A stretch of 64,000 nucleotides of DNA from Pseudooctadecabacter jejudonensis (lineage in GTDB: Bacteria; Pseudomonadota; Alphaproteobacteria; Rhodobacterales; Rhodobacteraceae), in assembly GCF_900172275.1 (NCBI RefSeq), contig NZ_FWFT01000001.1:496001-560000 (forward strand), written 5' to 3'. A program made the translations under genes and the position numbers. The stretch's first letter is position 1. Every line of letters starts with the position of its first letter. Below the pieces are notes generated by a model, which searched no databases, was not told where the DNA came from, and saw only the letters and a list, made by a program, of their open reading frames with translations. Below are positions 31,500 to 62,812 of the stretch, piece after piece.

Positions 31500-32375
31500 T
31501 CACGCATCATCACGTCCCCCCTGCTGCTTCAGACCCTGCGGGAAGGACGCATAAAGCGCCTCTTTGGACGCCGCGATCCCGTCCGCATAGCCCAACGGCC
31601 CCGTGGGCGCGCGTTTGGCCACAGCCTCAATTTCCATGGTCTCAATGGGCGTGCCCAGCGCACGGTGAATGCCCGCGGCGTAGTCGTGGAATTTCAACAG
31701 CGCGCCGCCGTGAATGCCCGCAGGGTTCAGCCAGGTGTTTGGAATGCCGAAGGCATCGGCCGTCACCAACCCGTGCAGGGATTGGCTGATCACATGGGCG
31801 CACGACGCAATGTCACGCACCACACGCAGGGGCACCTCATCGCGCACATCAATCAGCTTGATGCGCGGGTTGTCCGCGGCAATCTGGCGCAAACGCGGGT
31901 CATCGGCGTAATGCATATGCGGGACCAAACCCACGATATCCTGACGTGCAGGGGCCTCCCCCAGCACATCGGCAATCAACAGCCCCGGATCGCCAAACAC
32001 ACGGTCATCGCGGTTCATCAAAGCGGCCGTGATCGGCCCGCGCAACAAAGCCACGCGGGTGTGGTGCCGGAAGGCGCGGTTTGGCAGACCGGCCATTGTG
32101 CCCGTGCCCCACAAAAACGGTTTGCGTCCGCTGTCCCGCGGGGCCGTCTGGTGGCTGGCCACGGATTTCATCAGGCTGCCCAGCGCATACATCTCGCAAT
32201 TGCCATGGTGCGCCCATTTCACATCGCGTTTGGACACATGGGACACGATATTGGCCGAAATGGCATCGCCGAAATTGGGTTCATCGCGATACCAATACAG
32301 ACGCAGCGGCGCCGTATAGGGCGTGTCCCGAACGGGGGTCACAGCTGGATCAGAATGGGCAGGCACTTGCGTCAT
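31500..32375 (-). CDS. Polysaccharide pyruvyl transferase family protein
   Basis: A 291-residue enzyme expected to add ketal pyruvate to a sugar, or to act on a related glycan. Motifs are NFGDAISANIV, LRGPITAALM, FGDPGLLIADVL and VISQSLHGLVTADAFGIP, all diagnostic of the ExoV/WcaK-like family. Its ATG overlaps the FkbM stop by four bases (ATGA), so the two act together. It lies inside the suf operon, where a glycan enzyme is out of place. The acceptor polymer is unknown; no polymer biosynthesis genes are near. Confidence 0.87.
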   Translation of the reverse strand: MTQVPAHSDPAVTPVRDTPYTAPLRLYWYRDEPNFGDAISANIVSHVSKRDVKWAHHGNCEMYALGSLMKSVASHQTAPRDSGRKPFLWGTGTMAGLPNRAFRHHTRVALLRGPITAALMNRDDRVFGDPGLLIADVLGEAPARQDIVGLVPHMHYADDPRLRQIAADNPRIKLIDVRDEVPLRVVRDIASCAHVISQSLHGLVTADAFGIPNTWLNPAGIHGGALLKFHDYAAGIHRALGTPIETMEIEAVAKRAPTGPLGYADGIAASKEALYASFPQGLKQQGGRDDA

Positions 32376-33274
32376 GCGGCCGCCTGTCTGTCTGTCTTCG
32401 GGGCCGCCAGAACATCCTGCGGCAGATGGGCTACAAACTGTTTGGCCGCCTTGGGGTCACAGGCCCCACGGCGGCCGAGTTCATCCAGACAATGCAACGT
32501 CAGATCATAGCTTTCGAACACCACCGCCGCAGCAATCGCCAGCTGTTTCAATTGATGTTCCGTCACCGTGCCGATGTCTTCGATGTTGCGAATATAAACC
32601 GCATCCCCATCCAACAGCTGCGATCCCACCGATTTGCGATCCAACTGCCGCCATTGGCTGTGTTTGACCGGCAAAGCCTTTTGCGTCAGGAACTTATGCA
32701 ACTGGAACCCTTGGGCGCGCAGCTCTGCATCCAAATCGCCCCACAGCGGCTCATCCTCATACATGCGGATAAACCGCACCTCGGGGATGACAACCATGGC
32801 CTCCGACAAGGTGGTCCGCCCGCCTTGCATCACCGACAACTCCCCGCCCTGCAGATCCATCTTCAACAGATCGACCTTGGGCATATCGGGGATGCTATCG
32901 ACCGTGACCATATCCATCTCAATCTCGGTGATCTCTTTTTGATACCACCTCTCACGGCCCAGAAAATCAGCCGTGGGTTTGTAGATCTTGAACAGCGACG
33001 ACAGCACCGCGAATTCATGGGCGTAATAAATGCCCTTGCCCTCGGGCCCCACGGCCTGCGGAAAATAGGTGGCATTGTCGCGCGGCTGTTTTTGCAGTTC
33101 CGCAAAGGCACGCGGGTTGGGCTCAAACCCCCAGACGTGGCACATCCCTTCCTCGATCAACAGCTGATAATCTGGCACGTTGATCGGGTTGGCCCCCACA
33201 TCAAGGATCTTCATATCCTCAGGCGCCAAAGTCTCTTTCAGGAACATCAGCCGATCACGGTTCGTGCGTGCCAT
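32372..33274 (-). CDS. FkbM family methyltransferase
   Basis: A 300-residue SAM-dependent methyltransferase. Motif I is KILDVGANPINVPDY, followed by WGFEPNPRAFAELQ. VDLLKMDLQGGELSVMQGG matches the FkbM pattern, where an acidic residue then Gly-Gly-Glu marks the active region. Members often O-methylate sugars. The start MARTNRDRLMFLK has GAGGTGG upstream; the frame is open another 71 codons upstream but that part is Gly/Arg-rich noise. It is 65 bases after sufB, with a hairpin in the gap, and overlaps the pyruvyl transferase. Confidence 0.88.
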   Translation of the reverse strand: MARTNRDRLMFLKETLAPEDMKILDVGANPINVPDYQLLIEEGMCHVWGFEPNPRAFAELQKQPRDNATYFPQAVGPEGKGIYYAHEFAVLSSLFKIYKPTADFLGRERWYQKEITEIEMDMVTVDSIPDMPKVDLLKMDLQGGELSVMQGGRTTLSEAMVVIPEVRFIRMYEDEPLWGDLDAELRAQGFQLHKFLTQKALPVKHSQWRQLDRKSVGSQLLDGDAVYIRNIEDIGTVTEHQLKQLAIAAAVVFESYDLTLHCLDELGRRGACDPKAAKQFVAHLPQDVLAAPKTDRQAAA

Positions 33275-53703: not shown

Positions 53704-54303
53704 TCACAGACGCGACGCGACGTTCTCCCAGTTCACCAGATTGTCGAGGAAGTTCGACAGATAATCAGGACGTTTGTTGCGGAAATCGATGTAGTAGGAA
53801 TGCTCCCACACATCGCAGCCCAACAGCGCCGTCTGGCCGAAACACACAGGGTTCACACCGTTTTCGGTCTTGGTCACCTTCAGGCCACCGTCAGTGTCCT
53901 TCACCAGCCACGCCCAACCGGACCCGAACTGACCTGCGCCAGCGGCCTTGAACTCATCCTTCATCTTGTCGACAGACCCGAAGCTTTCAACGATGGCCGT
54001 CTCCAACTCTCCGGGCATCGCGCTGTCGCCCGGCCCCATCATTTCCCAGAACTGGTTGTGGTTCCACAGCTGGCTGATGTTGTTGAAGATGCCGTTTTGC
54101 GCCACGGCATTGGGATCATAAGTACCCTTGATGATCTCCTCCATGGATTTGTCGGCCCACTCGGTGCCTTCAATCGCCTTGTTGCCGTTGGTCACATAGG
54201 CGTTGTGGTGCAGGTCGTGGTGGTATTCCAGCGTCTCCGCGGACATGCCTTTGGCGGCAAGCGCATCATGGGCATAGGGAAGATCAGGAAGTTCGAAAGC
54301 CAT
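53704..54303 (-). CDS. sodB: Superoxide dismutase, iron type
   Basis: A 199-residue enzyme that dismutates superoxide in the cytoplasm. The four metal ligands are in EYHHDLHHNAYV (His28), SQLWNHNQFWEMM (His), and CDVWEHSYYIDF (Asp and His). GSGWAWLVKDTDG and the overall spacing favour the iron type over manganese; cambialistic use cannot be excluded. Monocistronic with its own terminator. Confidence 0.95.
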   Translation of the reverse strand: MAFELPDLPYAHDALAAKGMSAETLEYHHDLHHNAYVTNGNKAIEGTEWADKSMEEIIKGTYDPNAVAQNGIFNNISQLWNHNQFWEMMGPGDSAMPGELETAIVESFGSVDKMKDEFKAAGAGQFGSGWAWLVKDTDGGLKVTKTENGVNPVCFGQTALLGCDVWEHSYYIDFRNKRPDYLSNFLDNLVNWENVASRL

Positions 54304-54573: not shown

Positions 54574-56343
54574 ATGGCGAAACACCAATACACCATCCTG
54601 TCGATGATGAAGGACGAAGGCCATTCCCTTGTGGAATGGGTCGCCTATCACACCCACATCGGCTTTGATAACATCTGCGTCTACACCAACAACTGTGGCG
54701 ACGGGACCGATGACATGCTGATCCGCCTTGAAGAACTCGGCTGGGTCAAACATTTCCGCAATGACGTGCCTGAAGGCAAAAAACCCCAGCCCAACGCGCT
54801 GATGCTGGCCACCAAAAACCCCGACGTGACGGACAGTGAATGGATCCTCACGATGGACGCGGATGAATTTCTGTCCATCAAATGCGGCCGCGGACATATC
54901 GATCATCTGGTCGAACGGATGGACCCCGCGGCTGACGCCATCGCCATCACATGGCGGTTCTTTGGCTCCAACGGGATCACCGACTGGAACCCCGGGCTGG
55001 TGACGGAAAACTACACCTCCGCCGCGCCTGACATGTTCAAGAAAGGCTGGGGCGTGAAAACCATGTTCAAGCCCTACCGCGACATGAAACTGGGCATCCA
55101 CCGGCCCCACATCAAAAAGGCCAAACAGGAACCGGCAAACGCGAAACTGCTGTTTGATCAACTCTGGCTCAACGGCTCCGGCAAACCCATGCCCGATGAA
55201 TTTTCGCTGTCGGGCTGGCGGTCCACCAAACCCACACTGGGCTACAAATGGGTGGAACTGAACCACTACGCCGTCAAATCGTATGAGGCGTATCTGCTGC
55301 GCCGTGTGCGCGGCAACGTGAACAACAAGGAAGACAAATACAACGCCGCCTACTTCGCCCTCTTTGACCGCAACGAAGAGGAACACATGAACGCCGTGCG
55401 TCACGCCAAGGGCGTGAAAAAGAAGATGGCAAAGATCCTCAGCGATCCCATCATGCGTGACTTGCAGGACAAAGCGTTGGAGTTTCACGCCAAACGGGTT
55501 GAGATGCTGCGCACCTCTGGCGAATACGACACATGGGTGGCTGAACTGAAAGAGGCCTCGCAGATTCCGCTGGATAAACTGGATGAGGTCCTCTTCATTC
55601 AGCACCTGCCCAAGGAATGGCAGCAAAAGGTCAAGGAACTGCAGGCCGCAGGCATCCCGGACAAGAAAATCGCCAAAATGATCGCCCAGACGCAAACCGC
55701 CAAAAAGGGCGAAACCCGTCAGGCGCTTTTGGCGGCTGCCGGTGAAAATGCGGAAGAAAAGCTTGATGCGCACCAGTTGCGGGGCCGCGAAAGCAAGGGC
55801 GACACCTTGGACAATCCGTTTATGAACACGGAGGCCGCCGCAGGGCTGGGCGTGCCCTTGATGAACGAACGCACCCAGAAAATCGCGCTCGCCGCGCAGG
55901 CCGCGGACCCCAAGGACGCCAGTGCGGCCAAACTGCTGGCCAAAGCAGAAAACGCCCGCAAGGTCTTGAAAGCACAGGCTAAAACCGCCGCTCAGACGGA
56001 CCAGCCCCCGCAAGCGGTCGTCGATCTCAACGAACCCGCCCCCTCCCTCGATGCCATTGTCGAAAACGTCACGGTTGAGGCGTCGACCACCATCGAAAGC
56101 CCGGACGGCACCGTTCCGGCGGTGGACGCCGCCCCCAAAGCCACATCAACCCGGGCCAAATCAACTGGGGCCAAATCAACCCCGGCCAAATCAACCCCGG
56201 CCAAATCAACCCCGGCCAAATCAACCAAGGTCGCCCCCAAAAAGGCCGCCCCCAAGACAACAGCGCGAAAAACCAGCACCAAAAAGACCACGGCAAAGGC
56301 GACATCTCGCAAAACCAGCACCAAAAAGGCCGCCTCAAAATGA
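54574..56343 (+). CDS. Glycosyltransferase-like protein (GT2-type, PF13704-like) with histone-H1-like C-terminal tail
   Basis: About 589 residues from the chosen start MAKHQYTILSMMKDEGHSLV, the point where the family domain begins; an open frame extends upstream to 54412. The GT-like domain (about 1-300) has VEWVAYHTHIGFDNICVYTN and the metal-binding WILTMDADEFLSI. A long helical region follows. The last 60-odd residues are Lys/Ala/Ser/Thr-rich (AKSTPAKSTPAKSTPAKSTK then KKAAPKTTARKTSTKK), like a histone H1 tail. The stop overlaps the next gene (ATGA). The acceptor is unknown; the tail could bind nucleic acid or an acidic polymer. Confidence 0.85.
   Translation: MAKHQYTILSMMKDEGHSLVEWVAYHTHIGFDNICVYTNNCGDGTDDMLIRLEELGWVKHFRNDVPEGKKPQPNALMLATKNPDVTDSEWILTMDADEFLSIKCGRGHIDHLVERMDPAADAIAITWRFFGSNGITDWNPGLVTENYTSAAPDMFKKGWGVKTMFKPYRDMKLGIHRPHIKKAKQEPANAKLLFDQLWLNGSGKPMPDEFSLSGWRSTKPTLGYKWVELNHYAVKSYEAYLLRRVRGNVNNKEDKYNAAYFALFDRNEEEHMNAVRHAKGVKKKMAKILSDPIMRDLQDKALEFHAKRVEMLRTSGEYDTWVAELKEASQIPLDKLDEVLFIQHLPKEWQQKVKELQAAGIPDKKIAKMIAQTQTAKKGETRQALLAAAGENAEEKLDAHQLRGRESKGDTLDNPFMNTEAAAGLGVPLMNERTQKIALAAQAADPKDASAAKLLAKAENARKVLKAQAKTAAQTDQPPQAVVDLNEPAPSLDAIVENVTVEASTTIESPDGTVPAVDAAPKATSTRAKSTGAKSTPAKSTPAKSTPAKSTKVAPKKAAPKTTARKTSTKKTTAKATSRKTSTKKAASK
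56155..56226 (+). repeat. 15-bp tandem repeat coding for AKSTP
   Basis: Five AKST units at 15-base periodicity (GCCAAATCAACCCCG), the first followed by a glycine linker. It sits in the C-terminal tail of the GT-like protein and invites length variation by slippage. Confidence 0.9.
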
Positions 56344-57368
56344 CCAAAGCCCCCAACGCGGGCCGCAAGGTCCTTGTCACCACAATGAAAAACGAAGGCC
56401 CCTACCTGCTGGAATGGTTGGCCTATCACAAAAAGATCGGGATCGACGAATTCTGTATCTTTTCAAATGATTGCACCGACGGCACCAACCTGATGCTGAA
56501 CCGGCTGGACCAGTTGGGCGTCGTCAAACACTACGACAACCCGCAAGGCCCGAATATGGACCCGCAGCGCTCTGCCTATAGCCGCGCCAACCGTCTCAAA
56601 TGGGTCAAATCCGCCGATTGGGTGCTGATTGTGGACGCGGACGAATTTCTCAACATCCATGTGGGCGACGGCACGCTGGATGATCTGATCCACGCCTGCG
56701 GCGATCCTGATGCGATTTCCATCAACTGGCGGCTCATGGGCTCTGTCGGGCAATCCAAGATGTCGATTGACCCGATGAACGGCGAACTGGTCACCGACCG
56801 GTTCACCCGTGGGTCCAGCTTCGAAGACCCGGAAAATGGCCTTGTCTGGGGCTTCAAAACCCTCTTTCGGCCCGGCAAGTTTGATTTCTTCGGCGTGCAC
56901 CGTCCCAAATGGCGCAAGGAAACCGACGTCGAACCCGGCAAAGTCACCTGGACGAACGCCGCCGGCAAACCCATGGGGGACGCCTACCTGCGCAAAGGCT
57001 GGCGCGGCAGCAAAGAAAACGTCACCAACGAATTTGCGCAAGTGAACCACTACGCCATCAAATCGCGTGAGGATTTCTTGCTCAAACGTCTGCGCGGCAC
57101 GGCCAATTCCAAGAACAAGGGCCGCATCGACATGGACTATTGGGACAAATACGACATCAACACACATGAGGATTCGACCATCCGCAATGACGGTGTGCGC
57201 GACCAGATGAACACGTGGCTTGAGGACGCGGATCTGGCCGCCCTCGCCCGCGCCTGTGCCGATTGTTCGCAGCGCGTGCTGGACTACCAGCTGACCGTGC
57301 CCGAATTCCGCACCTTCATCGACACCGGCATATTTGAGCCTATGAAGAAGCCCGAAGACGTCCCATGA
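56340..57368 (+). CDS. Glycosyltransferase-like protein (PF13704-like), second in operon
   Basis: A 342-residue paralogue of the preceding protein. The domain opens KVLVTTMKNEGPYLLEWLAY and carries CIFSNDCTDGTNLMLNRLDQ and the acidic metal motif VLIVDADEFLNI. Later ALNHYAIKSREDFLLKRL-type segments (here VNHYAIKSREDFLLKRLRGT) recur in all three paralogues of this region. It overlaps the first GT gene and the sulfotransferase by four bases each, so the three are one translation-coupled unit. The sugar donor and acceptor are unknown. Confidence 0.86.
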   Translation: MTKAPNAGRKVLVTTMKNEGPYLLEWLAYHKKIGIDEFCIFSNDCTDGTNLMLNRLDQLGVVKHYDNPQGPNMDPQRSAYSRANRLKWVKSADWVLIVDADEFLNIHVGDGTLDDLIHACGDPDAISINWRLMGSVGQSKMSIDPMNGELVTDRFTRGSSFEDPENGLVWGFKTLFRPGKFDFFGVHRPKWRKETDVEPGKVTWTNAAGKPMGDAYLRKGWRGSKENVTNEFAQVNHYAIKSREDFLLKRLRGTANSKNKGRIDMDYWDKYDINTHEDSTIRNDGVRDQMNTWLEDADLAALARACADCSQRVLDYQLTVPEFRTFIDTGIFEPMKKPEDVP

Positions 57369-58177
57369 GCCAACCGCGTTTCCTCTGCATCGGCACCCAC
57401 CACAAAACCGGCACCGTCTGGATGCGGCGCACGTTTCACCGCTTTGCGACATCGCGCGATATTCCCGTGGTGCGCGTGAATGGCAAATCGACGCCTGCCG
57501 ATCTGCCCGAACGCGGGCCCGCGCTGGTGGTGAACTGGTCCTCCGACATCCCCACCGCGATCCTTGATCTGCCCGAAACCCGCGCCCTGCACATGATCCG
57601 CGACCCCCGCGATGTGCTGATTTCCGGCGCGCGCTATCATCTGACGGCCAAAACCGGCAATGAAAAATGGCTGGCCCGCCCGCGTGATCAATGGGGCGGC
57701 ATGAACTATCAGGAAAAGATCAATTCCCTGACCCGCCCGCTGGATCAGATGCGGTTTGAAATGCACCACAAACACAAGGCCACCTTGCGCGAAATGCTGC
57801 GCTGGCCCGCGGGTCACCCCCATGTGGCCGACGTCAAATACGAAGACATGATTGAAGATGCGGACATGGCGCGCATGCGCCAGATCATCACCGATTTCGA
57901 CGTCGAGGGCTTCGACGTGGACGGCGTGCTGCAGTCCTATTGGGAACAATCGCTGTTCGGTGGCCAAAAAGACGGCCGCAAAGGCAACGTCAAAGACCAC
58001 GTCAAATCCGGCAAAGCCGCCCAATGGATGCGCAAACTGCCCCTGGAAATCGCGGTGGAATATCACGCGGCCTACGGCGATGCCCTGATCAAACTGGGCT
58101 ATGCCACAGACGGCACATGGATCGACCAATGCCGCCCCGCCGCACAGGTTTATGCGGACGATGCCGCCAACGTGTGA
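57365..58177 (+). CDS. Sulfotransferase (PAPS-dependent)
   Basis: A 270-residue enzyme expected to transfer sulfate from PAPS. The 5'-phosphosulfate-binding loop is CIGTHHKTGTVWMRRTF with the catalytic lysine, and the 3'-phosphate site is ALHMIRDPRDVLISGARYH. Later WRKHFT-like basic residues are represented by GRKGNVKDHVKSGKAAQWMR. It ends the GT operon and overlaps the 3' end of a convergent GT gene by 28 bases. Sulfation of the glycan made by its operon partners is the natural guess. Confidence 0.88.
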   Translation: MSQPRFLCIGTHHKTGTVWMRRTFHRFATSRDIPVVRVNGKSTPADLPERGPALVVNWSSDIPTAILDLPETRALHMIRDPRDVLISGARYHLTAKTGNEKWLARPRDQWGGMNYQEKINSLTRPLDQMRFEMHHKHKATLREMLRWPAGHPHVADVKYEDMIEDADMARMRQIITDFDVEGFDVDGVLQSYWEQSLFGGQKDGRKGNVKDHVKSGKAAQWMRKLPLEIAVEYHAAYGDALIKLGYATDGTWIDQCRPAAQVYADDAANV

Positions 58178-59160
58178 TTTTCGCGGTAACGTTTGATCTT
58201 ACTCAGCAGGGATTGCATCTCGGGCTGCTTCTTGAACGCCGCAATGCGCCGCTGCGCCACATCCACCGCCGCTGTGTGTAGGCTTTTCAGCTCCGCATCC
58301 TTCAGCAACTCATCGCGGGCCGTGTCAATGTCATCGGTCATGCGCTGGATGTTGGTGTCGTGCAGGTCGTTGTTGTCGTAGCGCCGCCAATAGGCCATCG
58401 CGTCCTTTGCGTCCGCATGGTTCGCATTCCCGCGATCGACCTTCAGCATATAGGTCTCAACCGCGCGCAGGGCGTAATGGTTCAACTGCACCAGATCGAA
58501 CCCGAAATGCGGATGCAGTAAGCTTTTGATGTCTTTGGTGAAATCCTGCTCCGTCTGTCGGATGCCTGAACCGTTGACGCAATGCACTTTGTCCAGCTTG
58601 TCGCCATGAAACACCGGCGAATGGTTGTGCCACGCCTTCGCTTCCGCCGATTGGTGGGTCAGCGTTTTCGTCCCCCGCCGGTTCAACCGCGCGTGATAGG
58701 CCTTTTCCTTGTCCCAGGCGTATTGAAACTGCCGCGTCAGCAACGCGTCCTCAAAGGGCACAATGTCTGAACAGCCAAAATTGTGCTGGTTCATCACGAT
58801 CATGTTTGCGTCGGGCACGGCGTTGAACAGATCCTCCAGATGGCCCTTACCGGTGTTCACACAAATGAATTCATCGACGTCAAAACTCACCACCCAGTCA
58901 GACCGCGGCAGCCGTTCGGAGGTGTTGATGTAGCGGATGACCTGCAGATGGTGTTTGTCGCGCGCCAGATACATGGACGGGTTGGGGTAGTGCCGCAGCA
59001 CGCCCATTTCATCCAGACGTTCCAACATCAGGTTGGTGCCATCCGTGCAATCGTTGGAAAAAACCAACATATCGTTGACGCCGATCATGCGGTGATAGGC
59101 CACCCATTCCAACAGAAACGGCGCCTCGTTTTTCATCGGCGTGACGGATGTGATGCGCAT
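58150..59160 (-). CDS. Glycosyltransferase-like protein (PF13704-like), third paralogue
   Basis: A 336-residue protein homologous to the two GT-like proteins on the other strand: VTPMKNEAPFLLEWVAYHRM, VFSNDCTDGTNLMLERLDEM, the acidic motif WVVSFDVDEFICV, and LVQLNHYALRAVETYMLKVD. ATG 59160 is preferred to an upstream frame that adds unrelated residues. It converges on, and overlaps, the sulfotransferase by 28 bases. Expression is therefore from a separate promoter on the right. Confidence 0.87.
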   Translation of the reverse strand: MRITSVTPMKNEAPFLLEWVAYHRMIGVNDMLVFSNDCTDGTNLMLERLDEMGVLRHYPNPSMYLARDKHHLQVIRYINTSERLPRSDWVVSFDVDEFICVNTGKGHLEDLFNAVPDANMIVMNQHNFGCSDIVPFEDALLTRQFQYAWDKEKAYHARLNRRGTKTLTHQSAEAKAWHNHSPVFHGDKLDKVHCVNGSGIRQTEQDFTKDIKSLLHPHFGFDLVQLNHYALRAVETYMLKVDRGNANHADAKDAMAYWRRYDNNDLHDTNIQRMTDDIDTARDELLKDAELKSLHTAAVDVAQRRIAAFKKQPEMQSLLSKIKRYRENHTLAASSA

Positions 59161-59283: not shown

Positions 59284-59811
59284 TCAGCCCAAGGCCCCCG
59301 TTGGGGCCGCCGCCGCCGCGTTGCGCAACAGCCCTTCGGCATAATCCCCGACAGAGCGGAAACAGATCACGTCAAACCCTGCCTCATGCCGCCAGATCGC
59401 CGCCGCCACCTGCGCCATCCGCGTGCGCCGAAACGCGCCAACGGCAAAACTGTCTGCATGCAAATCCACAGGGCAAACCCGCGCCAAAACCTCATGGGCC
59501 TGCGCGCCTTCAACCGTAAAAACAGCCCGCGCATCCGACACGTCAACCGCCAAATAATGCTTACCCAACAGGGTCTTATCCAGCGCAGCTAATGTCGCCT
59601 CGACCTCCCCATAAGGCACCATCACCAACAGCTCATCCGGTGACATCCAGATTACACCCTTGGTGTCATCCCCCGCGATGTGGCCCGCCTTGGGCACCGT
59701 ATATCCGGTCGCGGCCTTGACGGCCTTCTTCAACGGGGACGACGTCAGATCGCCCCGCAGCGTGATCATCCCGCGCGCGCTATGGCGGATCACTTTGGCC
59801 AGATCAGACAT
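59284..59811 (-). CDS. soxG: Sarcosine oxidase gamma subunit
   Basis: A 175-residue subunit of heterotetrameric sarcosine oxidase, structurally related to the GcvT fold. Recognisable stretches are HSARGMITLRGDLTSSPLKK, WMSPDELLVMVPYGE and AGFDVICFRSVGDYAEGLL. The start MSDLAKVIRH overlaps the soxA stop by eight bases. It completes the soxD-soxA-soxG order. The complex oxidises sarcosine to glycine and passes the one-carbon unit to tetrahydrofolate. Confidence 0.93.
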   Translation of the reverse strand: MSDLAKVIRHSARGMITLRGDLTSSPLKKAVKAATGYTVPKAGHIAGDDTKGVIWMSPDELLVMVPYGEVEATLAALDKTLLGKHYLAVDVSDARAVFTVEGAQAHEVLARVCPVDLHADSFAVGAFRRTRMAQVAAAIWRHEAGFDVICFRSVGDYAEGLLRNAAAAAPTGALG

Positions 59812-62800
59812 TCTGTTTCTCCCCGTCCACATCATAAAACACCGGCGACACGATCTTGGCATGCACAACCGTGCCATCCACCCGCGGAAACTGGATCACC
59901 TCGCCCATGCGGTCCGGCCCATGCCGCACCAACCCCATGGCAATCCCGCGCCCCAAATTGGCGCTGTAATAGGTTGAGGTCACACGCCCTTGCACATTGC
60001 GTTGCCCATTCGCATTCTCGCCCTCATCCGTCGCATAGGCCCCGTCCGGCAGGACAGATCCGTCCACCGTCTCAAGCCCCACCAAGGTCCAACGATCCGG
60101 GTCTTGCATCGCCGTGCGCTGCTGGCCGCGCTTACCCAGATAATCATCCTTCTTCTTGGACAGCGCCCAATTCAGCCCCAGATCCTGCGGGATCACGGTG
60201 CCATCCGTCTCATCCCCGATCATGATGAAGCCCTTCTCGGCCCGCAAGATGTGCAAGGCTTCGGTGCCGTAAGGCATAACGCCAAGCTCCGCCCCCGCCT
60301 CCATCAAGGCATCCCAAAACGCCGCCCCGTCTGAGGCTTTGACCGCAATCTCATATGACAATTCGCCCGAGAATGAGATCCGGTAAGCCCGGCAGTCAAA
60401 CCCGCCAATCACCCCGTCGCGCCACTGCATAAACGGCAGCGCCTCTTTCGACACATCCATCCCGCCGAGCTTTTCCAGAACCTTGCGCGCCTTGGGCCCA
60501 ACCACAGCCACCTGCGCATATTGTTCGGTGACATTGGCGACGTAGACCTTCCAATCCCACCACTCGGTCTGCAACCATTCTTCCATGTGCCCATGGATAT
60601 GGTCCGCCCCGCCGGTGGTGGTGTGACACAGCCACGTGTCCTCATCGATGCGGGCGACCACGCCGTCATCCATCAAGAACCCCTGTTCGTTGCACATCAA
60701 TCCGTACCGGCATTTGCCCACCGGCAAGGTCGACATCAGATTGGTGTACATCATGTCCAGAAAGCGCCCCGCATCGGGGCCCTTGACGATCAACTTGCCA
60801 AGTGTCGAAGCATCGAGCAGGCCCAAATTCTCACGCGTGTTTTTCACCTCACGGTTCACGGCGTCCTCAACACTCTCACCGGTCTGCTGATAGGCATAGA
60901 CACGGCGCCACTGGCCCACAGGCTCCCAATCGGCCCCATGGGCGTCGGACCAGTCATGGATCGGCGTTTTGCGCAGCGGCTGGAACAATGCCCCCGACGC
61001 CTCACCGCCGATAGATCCAAGCGAAATCGGCGTATAGGGCGGGCGGAACGTCGTTGTGCCCGTCGCGGGAATGGGCTGGCCCAAAGCGTCCGACAAAATC
61101 GCCAAACCATTGATGTTGCTCAACTTCCCCTGATCTGTTGCCATCCCGAGGGTGGTATAACGTTTGGTGTGCTCGACGCTCTCATACCCCTCTTGCGCGG
61201 CCAGCTGCACATCAGACACTTTGACGTCGTTCTGATAATCCAGCCACATCTTGGACCGGAGTTTATAAGACGCACCCTGCGGCATCATCCACACGGCCTC
61301 CATCGGGGCCTCATCGGGCGCATCTGCGGCAGGCGCGGTGCCGGGCGCGTTGAACTGCCCTGCCGCCTTCGCCGCATCGGCGCCCGCACGGTGGGCGGTC
61401 ACGACGCAGTCGTGGGTGCTCAGTGCGCCCGTGGCGGCCCCTGCGGGCAGAACAAAGCCAGCACCATCCGCGCCCAGTGGCGGGCGGTCCGGATCGGGAC
61501 GGAAATGGCTCTGGCCCGCGTCCCACAACAATTTGCCCCCGCAATGGGACCACAGATGCACCACGGGTGACCAGCCGCCGGACATGGCCACCGAATCACA
61601 GGCGATCTCTTCCAGCGGCGCGCCCTCACCCGCTTGGGCGCAAATCTCAACACCGGTCACGCGCTTGCCGCCCTTTACGGACGCTATGGCTTTGCCAAAC
61701 ATCACCTTGATACCCAGGCCTTCGGCCTCACGGGCCAACGGCCCAGCACCGCTGCGCGCGTCAATCACCGCAGGCACCTCCAGCCCTGCCTTTTTCAGCG
61801 CAATCGCCGTGCGGTAGGCGTCGTCGTTGTTCGTCACAACCACCGTCCGGTCGCCCACAGATGCGCCGTAATTTACCACGTAATCGCGCACGGCAGAGGC
61901 CAGCATGACCCCGGGCACATCGTTGCCCGCAAAACTCAAGGGGCGTTCAATCGCGCCCGTTGCGGTCACAATCTGCGCCGCCCGCACCCGCCACAGCCGA
62001 TGCCGTGGCCCGGATTTGTCGCCCAAATGATCGGTCAGACGTTCATACGCCAGCACATAGCCATGATCATAAACGCCAGCCCCCATGCACCGGGACACGA
62101 CCGTGACATTGGGCATCTTTTCAAGGACTTGCAGGGCATTCTGCACCCAAGCGTCCGCATCCAGCCCGTCAATCTGCACTCCATCCACCGGCGCACGCCC
62201 GCCCCAATGGGCGGTCTGTTCCACCAGCAACACCCGCGCGCCCGCGCGTCCTGCGGCCAGGGCAGCGGTCAAACCCGCCACACCGCCCCCCACGACCATC
62301 ACGTCGCAGTGGAAATAGAAATGTTCATACACATCCGCATCACGGTCCTTGGGCGCGCGGCCCAGACCGGCGGCCTTGCGGATAAACGGCTCATACACAT
62401 GTTTCCACAACGGGCGCGGATGAATGAACATCTTGTAGTAAAAGCCCGCAGGCATGAACTTCGACAGCTTCGCGTTCACCGCGCCCACGTCAAATTCAAG
62501 ACTGGGGAAGTGGTTCTGCGACGTGGCCTCCAGCCCCTCAAACACCTCTTGCGTGGTGACCCTTTGGTTGGGCTCAAACCGGCCATCCGCACCAAGGTTC
62601 ACCAGCCCATTGGGCTCCTCCGCGCCAGACGCCACGATCCCTCTGGGGCGGTGATATTTGAACGACCGCCCCACCAGCATCTGGTCATTGGCCAACAAGG
62701 CCGAGGCCAGCGTATCGCCCGCAAACCCGCGCATCTGGCTGCCGTTGAACGTAAATTTCACCTGTTGGGACCGGTCAATCAGCCGCCCCTCATTGGCCAG

Positions 62801-62812
62801 ACGTGTGCTCAT
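59804..62812 (-). CDS. soxA: Sarcosine oxidase alpha subunit
   Basis: A 1002-residue subunit. It begins with a small Fer2-like domain (TFNGSQMRGFAGDTLASALL), then a Rossmann/NAD-binding domain (VVGGGVAGLTAALAAGRAGA). The C-terminal GcvT/aminomethyltransferase half (from about residue 610, with GKCRYGLMCNEQGFLMDDGV) uses tetrahydrofolate. The start MSTRLANEGRL overlaps the soxD stop by four bases (ATGA). An earlier in-frame ATG (62947) is rejected as it runs through soxD. Length and domains match soxA. Confidence 0.95.
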   Translation of the reverse strand: MSTRLANEGRLIDRSQQVKFTFNGSQMRGFAGDTLASALLANDQMLVGRSFKYHRPRGIVASGAEEPNGLVNLGADGRFEPNQRVTTQEVFEGLEATSQNHFPSLEFDVGAVNAKLSKFMPAGFYYKMFIHPRPLWKHVYEPFIRKAAGLGRAPKDRDADVYEHFYFHCDVMVVGGGVAGLTAALAAGRAGARVLLVEQTAHWGGRAPVDGVQIDGLDADAWVQNALQVLEKMPNVTVVSRCMGAGVYDHGYVLAYERLTDHLGDKSGPRHRLWRVRAAQIVTATGAIERPLSFAGNDVPGVMLASAVRDYVVNYGASVGDRTVVVTNNDDAYRTAIALKKAGLEVPAVIDARSGAGPLAREAEGLGIKVMFGKAIASVKGGKRVTGVEICAQAGEGAPLEEIACDSVAMSGGWSPVVHLWSHCGGKLLWDAGQSHFRPDPDRPPLGADGAGFVLPAGAATGALSTHDCVVTAHRAGADAAKAAGQFNAPGTAPAADAPDEAPMEAVWMMPQGASYKLRSKMWLDYQNDVKVSDVQLAAQEGYESVEHTKRYTTLGMATDQGKLSNINGLAILSDALGQPIPATGTTTFRPPYTPISLGSIGGEASGALFQPLRKTPIHDWSDAHGADWEPVGQWRRVYAYQQTGESVEDAVNREVKNTRENLGLLDASTLGKLIVKGPDAGRFLDMMYTNLMSTLPVGKCRYGLMCNEQGFLMDDGVVARIDEDTWLCHTTTGGADHIHGHMEEWLQTEWWDWKVYVANVTEQYAQVAVVGPKARKVLEKLGGMDVSKEALPFMQWRDGVIGGFDCRAYRISFSGELSYEIAVKASDGAAFWDALMEAGAELGVMPYGTEALHILRAEKGFIMIGDETDGTVIPQDLGLNWALSKKKDDYLGKRGQQRTAMQDPDRWTLVGLETVDGSVLPDGAYATDEGENANGQRNVQGRVTSTYYSANLGRGIAMGLVRHGPDRMGEVIQFPRVDGTVVHAKIVSPVFYDVDGEKQNV

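Follow-up and report, generated by a model that had tools for sequence, protein, structure and literature searches.

Do the three glycosyltransferase-like genes and the sulfotransferase-like gene that adjoin one another in Pseudooctadecabacter jejudonensis form one system for making a sulfated glycan? A preliminary description of this DNA had proposed so for all four genes, here called P1 to P4, which lie in a 64,000-nt stretch of contig NZ_FWFT01000001.1 (GCF_900172275.1), hereafter the window. We found that P1, P2, and P3 are a conserved unit and that P4 is an optional member, its slot being swappable. The features of the locus are:

P1, 54574..56343, + strand: predicted Glyco_tranf_2_4 glycosyltransferase, 589 residues (Pfam; clade 100/100)
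P1 C-terminal tail (residues 430-589), 55861..56340, + strand: Lys/Ala/Pro-rich in P. jejudonensis, lineage-variable
P2, 56340..57368, + strand: predicted Glyco_tranf_2_4/GT92-like glycosyltransferase, 342 residues (Pfam, model; clade 99/98)
P3, 57365..58177, + strand: predicted 3′-phosphoadenosine 5′-phosphosulfate (PAPS)-type sulfotransferase, 270 residues (Pfam, motifs, profile, model)
P4, 58150..59160, − strand: predicted Glyco_tranf_2_4/GT92-like glycosyltransferase, 336 residues (Pfam); optional in relatives

The four open reading frames and their junctions stand as first described. ATGA at 56340-56343 is common to the TGA stop of P1 and the ATG start of P2, ATGA at 57365-57368 joins P2 to P3 in the same way, and P3 (ending at 58177) and P4 (ending at 58150) converge with a 28-base overlap. 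Gene calling by codon usage, with P1–P4 among the training genes, returned the same genes with the P4 start 24 bases further in. A scan of the locus for sigma-70-type promoters gave 0 matches vs. a mean of 1.6 in shuffles, and NCBIfam returned no family for P1–P4 up to E 1.

The coupling of P1, P2, and P3 proved to extend well beyond the window, as the same order recurs across relatives. Our survey was anchored on P3, with one genome per species and the best 80 of 177 P3 relatives kept: 38 had P1 and P2 in the locus, 41 lay between sdhA and sdhB, and 1 (L171, a match near a contig end) had neither setting. The 38 module loci, several of them interrupted by contig ends, span at least 13 genus names, including Octadecabacter, Oceanicola, Histidinibacterium, Salibaculum, Marivivens, Ruegeria, Actibacterium, and Shimia. 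P1-P2-P3 stood in this order on one strand in 36 loci (3 of them with two P1 copies and 1 with a split P2), and P3 faced P2-P1 in two Ruegeria loci. With starts chosen by a script rule, the 4-base overlap was kept between P1 and P2 in 18/36 tabulated loci and between P2 and P3 in 26/36. P1, P2, and the module P3s (100/99) each formed a clade of their own. We also searched a second sample with P2, namely 149 genomes of the family that include the window’s own and overlap those of the P3 survey. Close P2 relatives (≥58% identity) were present in 7/149, and P3 adjoined in 6 of the 7. A P2 match at E ≤ 0.001 occurred in 122/149 genomes, so the glycosyltransferase family itself is ordinary in these bacteria.

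Foremost, the genes are fused in several genomes. P1 and P2 form a single open frame with a linker in Harenicola maris (L110), an Octadecabacter metagenome-assembled genome (MAG; L133), an uncultured Rhodobacteraceae (L136), and genome G144; P2 and P3 form a single open frame in Actibacterium atlanticum (L118) and another Octadecabacter MAG locus (L130). Because both links of the chain are fused somewhere, we regard the fusions as the strongest sign that P1, P2, and P3 serve one pathway in one compartment. The G144 fusion carries an apparent 300-residue N-terminal extension that may be a start-site overcall, and we did not use it. We likewise dropped the idea of an identifiable N-terminal domain in homologues of 750-800 residues, as Pfam gave none in the two examined (L102 and L099). 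Two tandem P1 domains share one open frame in three Octadecabacter relatives (L130, L132, and L133), and the L133 frame continues into P2. At L099:2538-7766 (+; G064), a 1742-residue protein carries a Glyco_tranf_2_4 domain together with stretches that resemble Gb3_synth and, weakly, Gly_transf_sug.

The class of P1, P2, and P4 can be read from family matches, and for P2 also from a predicted fold. All three exceed the curated cut-off of 27.5 bits for PF13704 (Glyco_tranf_2_4), with 68 for P1, 76.3 for P2, and 73.2 for P4; for PF01697 (Glyco_transf_92, cut-off 23), P2 (43.6) and P4 (45.9) lie above and P1 (21.6) below. Single pairwise comparisons gave 38% identity over 296 aligned columns for P1/P2 (E 1e-58), 33% over 336 for P2/P4 (E 2e-49), and 27% over 329 for P1/P4 (E 3e-38), a sequence similarity well beyond chance that marks the three as paralogues. 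The acidic metal motif lies at 54856-54870 in P1 (D95-A-D97-E98-F), 56634-56648 in P2 (D99-A-D101-E102-F), and 58867-58881 in P4 (DVDEF). Its D.DE residues (D99, D101, and E102 of P2) were invariant in 48/48 rows of P2 and P4 relatives, and P1 relatives had the window’s form in at least 95% of 35 rows. The preliminary description had given all three proteins one opening and an SNDCTDGT-type or equivalent loop as well: the paralogy and the acidic motif hold, but P1 opens with KDE..LVEW.AYH and carries NNCGDGT in place of KNE..LLEW and SNDCTDGT.

We made structure predictions for P2 and P3. The P2 model (predicted local distance difference test score, pLDDT, 92.3; predicted template-modeling score, pTM, 0.92) best matched GalS1, a GT92 galactan synthase, in the Protein Data Bank (PDB) with E 1.7e-9, a template-modeling (TM) score of 0.47, and ∼15% identity; collagen galactosyltransferase and further glycosyltransferases ranked next. 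By predicted fold and acidic metal motif, P2 is thus a GT-A-type glycosyltransferase, in keeping with the glycosyltransferase-like domains first proposed. Searching solved structures with the single P2 sequence gave nothing up to E 10, and the P2 profile was weakly similar to GmaR (E 0.0025) over ∼59 residues around the D.DE motif. In P1, the conserved core covers approximately residues 1-395, and from about residue 400 the protein continues into a tail whose length and composition differ among relatives, possibly a length-variable linker. In P. jejudonensis, the Lys/Ala-rich tail contains a 15-bp tandem repeat (5.8 copies, 56140-56226) encoding AKSTP-like units.

P3 was likewise classed by motif, profile, and predicted fold, and all three point to the PAPS-type sulfotransferase that had been proposed. 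It passes PF00685 (Sulfotransfer_1) narrowly, with 24.4 bits against a cut-off of 22. THHKTGTVWM at 57395-57424 and RDPRDVLIS at 57599-57625 are what we take to be the 5′-phosphosulfate-binding (5′-PSB) loop and the 3′-phosphate-binding (3′-PB) motif, and the predicted PAPS-contact residues T11, K14, G16, T17, R79, and S87 were invariant in 43/43 rows. The P3 model (pLDDT 91.2) had SULT1A1, SULT1B1, Teg14, and Teg12 among its best matches, with E from 1.3e-6. A P3 family profile run against solved structures also found the cytosolic sulfotransferases (SULTs; best E 2.5e-9), again with Teg12 and Teg14 among the nearest relatives.

P4 did not share the constancy of P1–P3. Across the 38 clusters, its slot held P4 in 18, a TupA-like ATP-grasp gene in 11 (both in 2), and neither in 11; one of the last (L126) ends at P3, with the slot outside the view. 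The TupA-like assignment rests on Pfam PF14305 in 2 of the 11 and on similarity in the rest. The Ruegeria THAF57 cluster adds to P4 a Gb3_synth-like gene (below cut-off), a second sulfotransferase (Sulfotransfer_2, PF03567), and a methyltransferase. In the same-genus G145 (O. dasysiphoniae, L125), the cluster is without P4; the genome has a P4-like gene (43%) at a different place. P4 was not recovered as a single clade, a result that the bootstrap leaves unsettled and in which some paralogue rows are probably misframed. Since P4 is present in only 18/38 clusters, the four genes are not one fixed unit, and this part of the preliminary description is not supported.

The module has a preferred address. 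Its flanking genes in the window, whose names (sod, superoxide dismutase; sox, sarcosine oxidase) we presume from sequence appearance rather than a family search, are:

sod-like flank, 53704..54303, − strand: seen at 32/38 module loci
soxG-like flank (sarcosine oxidase gamma-like), 59284..59811, − strand: by sequence appearance
soxA-like flank (sarcosine oxidase alpha-like), 59804..62812, − strand: seen at 28/38 module loci

Both sod and soxA flanked the module at 26/38 loci. In the 66/100 genomes that we paired by hand, sod and soxA lay 0.6-7.2 kb apart, and six of ten wider gaps that we fetched (2.3-7.2 kb) held glycan-type genes by Pfam: Glyco_tranf_2_4 (L212, L213, and L219), GT61 (L217 and L219), GSCFA (L212 and L215), and FkbM methyltransferase (L221). 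In the other four (L214, L216, L218, and L220), no glycan-type gene was recognized by eye, Pfam not having been applied. Glycan genes thus settle repeatedly in the sod-sox gap, and a shared location is by itself no proof of joint function.

The remaining window genes were judged by eye from the gene list, with Pfam run on P1–P4. The gene calls of the 51-63 kb region included no flippase, polymerase, or exporter that we could see and no Wzx/Wzy or ATP-binding cassette (ABC) cluster. The earlier statement that no flippase, polymerase, or other glycan gene is nearby holds for ∼21 kb upstream; the downstream view reaches only ∼5 kb, and glycan-type genes do occur at 31500-33274. These, on the − strand, are polysaccharide pyruvyl transferase-like and FkbM methyltransferase genes inside an apparent suf operon, whose gene names we presume. 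Matches to PF13440 (flippase type) and PF04932 (ligase/polymerase type) lie on other contigs of the genome.

The P. jejudonensis genome also encodes an APS (adenosine 5′-phosphosulfate) kinase for PAPS supply and a CysQ gene for removal of 3′-phosphoadenosine 5′-phosphate (PAP). Another contig (C6) carries a second locus (L094:7723-14922, +) with the order cysQ-galU-two Glyco_tranf_2_4-Branch/DUF5927-Sulfotransfer_2, in which cysQ and galU are both above NCBIfam cut-offs. Relatives of its sulfotransferase occurred in 83/100 genomes at E ≤ 0.001, some of them weak, and in 74/100 at E < 1e-100 by table count, the own genome included. We fetched 12 such regions from carriers of our choice, one of them (L204) interrupted by a contig end: the glycosyltransferase-Branch-sulfotransferase order was present in 12/12, galU in 11/12, and cysQ in 10/12. 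Together with P1–P3, this locus makes two pairings of Glyco_tranf_2_4 with a sulfotransferase in one genome. The same contig also has a P3-like sulfotransferase between sdhA- and sdhB-like genes (L095:7965-8762, −). Among the 41 sdhA-sdhB loci of the survey (L135, L139, L141-L145, L147-L152, L154-L170, and L172-L182), three (L143, L159, and L180) have further genes in the gap, assigned by Pfam to glycosyltransferase-type or polysaccharide pyruvyl transferase families. Sulfotransferase-looking genes were seen by eye in this gap in L142, L145, L147, L149, and L174, four without a Pfam match and one unsearched.

How, then, might the module work? We think it likely, with room for doubt, that P1, P2, and P3 work as an assembly line in the cytosol, attaching sugars and sulfate to an envelope glycan whose completion falls to machinery encoded elsewhere. 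P1 and P2, as metal-dependent GT-A enzymes of the Glyco_tranf_2_4/GT92 group, would add two sugars in succession; the donor is probably a uridine diphosphate (UDP)-hexose such as UDP-galactose, a guess from GT92 kinship only. P3 would then move sulfate from PAPS onto the P1-P2 product. P4 would be an additional glycosyltransferase that not every strain has; where it varies, an ATP-grasp ligase or another decorating enzyme would take or share its place. As we saw neither flippase nor polymerase in the locus, we propose that general machinery encoded elsewhere in the genome makes and exports the acceptor, probably an envelope glycan or glycolipid. The enzyme classes of P1–P4 are predictions from sequence, to which the structure models of P2 and P3 add weight; we infer the sequence in which the enzymes act, the sugar donor and the acceptor, the placement in the cytosol, and the export of the product to the surface. 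What survives of the sulfated-glycan system first proposed is thus its enzyme classes, the P1-P2-P3 linkage, and with them the fusions, and what does not is P4 as a fixed member.

The same proteins could act on other targets. P3 might sulfate a small molecule or lipid, with P1 and P2 glycosylating the same metabolite and no envelope glycan involved. Such compounds are the substrates of cytosolic SULTs and of the Teg sulfotransferases that modify antibiotics; these enzymes are the nearest solved relatives of P3 by both profile and fold, and the lack of a visible flippase or polymerase in the locus fits as well. However, the best match of the P2 model is a polysaccharide-making GT92 enzyme, the slot partners are TupA-like ATP-grasp, glycosyltransferase, and methyltransferase genes, and the sod-sox gap of other genomes carries GT61, GSCFA, and FkbM genes; we consider this alternative unlikely. 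Doubtful, too, is a protein acceptor such as flagellin or an outer-membrane protein. It would suit a locus without lipid-linked machinery and the similarity of P2 to GmaR, a flagellin-linked glycosyltransferase, but that similarity is limited to the stretch around D.DE, and no protein-target gene was noticed among the annotated neighbors, most neighbors in the 38 loci being unannotated.

Alternatively, P1–P3 could be independent passengers in a sod-sox hotspot of glycan genes, not acting jointly. The glycan-type genes in 6/10 fetched gaps and the variability of P4 among clusters are what one would expect of such a hotspot. Passengers would hardly keep one order in 36/38 clusters, have P1, P2, and module P3 each monophyletic, or be fused as P1-P2 and P2-P3, and we regard this explanation as very improbable.

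Several observations nevertheless weigh against the assembly line. The P2-P3 fusion of L130, its junction falling within an A-rich run, could be a sequencing error; P2 is frameshifted in Thalassobium R2A62 (L117); and the TM-score linking P2 to GalS1 is only 0.47. The catalytic His of cytosolic SULTs sits in a KTH motif; by eye, we saw no counterpart in P3, where approximately this stretch reads VNW. We tried APS kinase as a marker of sulfotransferase carriers and rejected it, since its presence in 137/149 genomes does not discriminate. A survey anchored on P3 cannot count P1 and P2 without P3, and in one of the seven P1/P2 carriers, G144, no P3 adjoins the fused P1-P2; this genome has its sulfotransferase relatives on two further contigs, and the closer relative stands between sdhA and sdhB. 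Apart from G144, we found for P1–P3 neither homologues standing consistently alone nor, with P2 and P3 modeled, glycosyltransferase-like domains without donor-binding residues.

A wider picture is possible, and we offer it tentatively. Marine Rhodobacteraceae may share a sulfated surface-glycan system in which a widespread core locus (cysQ-galU-Glyco_tranf_2_4-Branch/DUF5927-sulfotransferase) is joined by accessory, swappable, and fusible decoration modules like P1-P2-P3(-P4) in the gaps of housekeeping operons (sod-sox, sdhA-sdhB, and suf), varying the sulfated epitope between strains.

The available passages of PMC6418280 and PMC2824669 contain no description of a P1-P2-P3 module. Among the literature matches listed, which do not show absence from print, no title concerned the module. 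The parts are of known kinds; their combination as glycosyltransferase-glycosyltransferase-sulfotransferase, the fusions, and the swappable slot appear in none of these titles. To our knowledge, sulfated surface sugars have seldom been described in bacteria beyond cyanobacteria, rhizobia, and mycobacteria. The roseobacter line offers a small, deletable gene set for testing whether sulfated envelope glycans are present and could show whether they matter for phage, algal surfaces, or salt tolerance.

Compared with known systems, P2 resembles the plant galactan synthase GalS1 and its PF13704-PF01697 group in its predicted GT-A-type fold and D.DEF metal motif, and both P2 and P4 pass the two Pfam cut-offs; unlike GalS1, these glycosyltransferases are bacterial and found with a sulfotransferase. 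P3 shares the 5′-PSB and 3′-PB motifs and predicted fold of PF00685 SULTs and Teg12/Teg14. It differs in showing, by eye, no His at the position of the canonical SULT catalytic residue, in having glycosyltransferases as partners, and in having related sulfotransferases between sdhA and sdhB. TupA-like ATP-grasp enzymes (PF14305) decorate surface polymers, and such a gene takes up the P4 region, or part of it, in 11/38 clusters, the window’s own not among them. The synechan locus of Synechocystis reportedly unites glycosyltransferases and a sulfotransferase in one cluster. Synechan is a bacterial sulfated polysaccharide (PMC8205485). In contrast to that locus, the P1–P4 locus has no flippase, polymerase, or export gene that we could see, comprises just three or four genes, and joins them by fusion.

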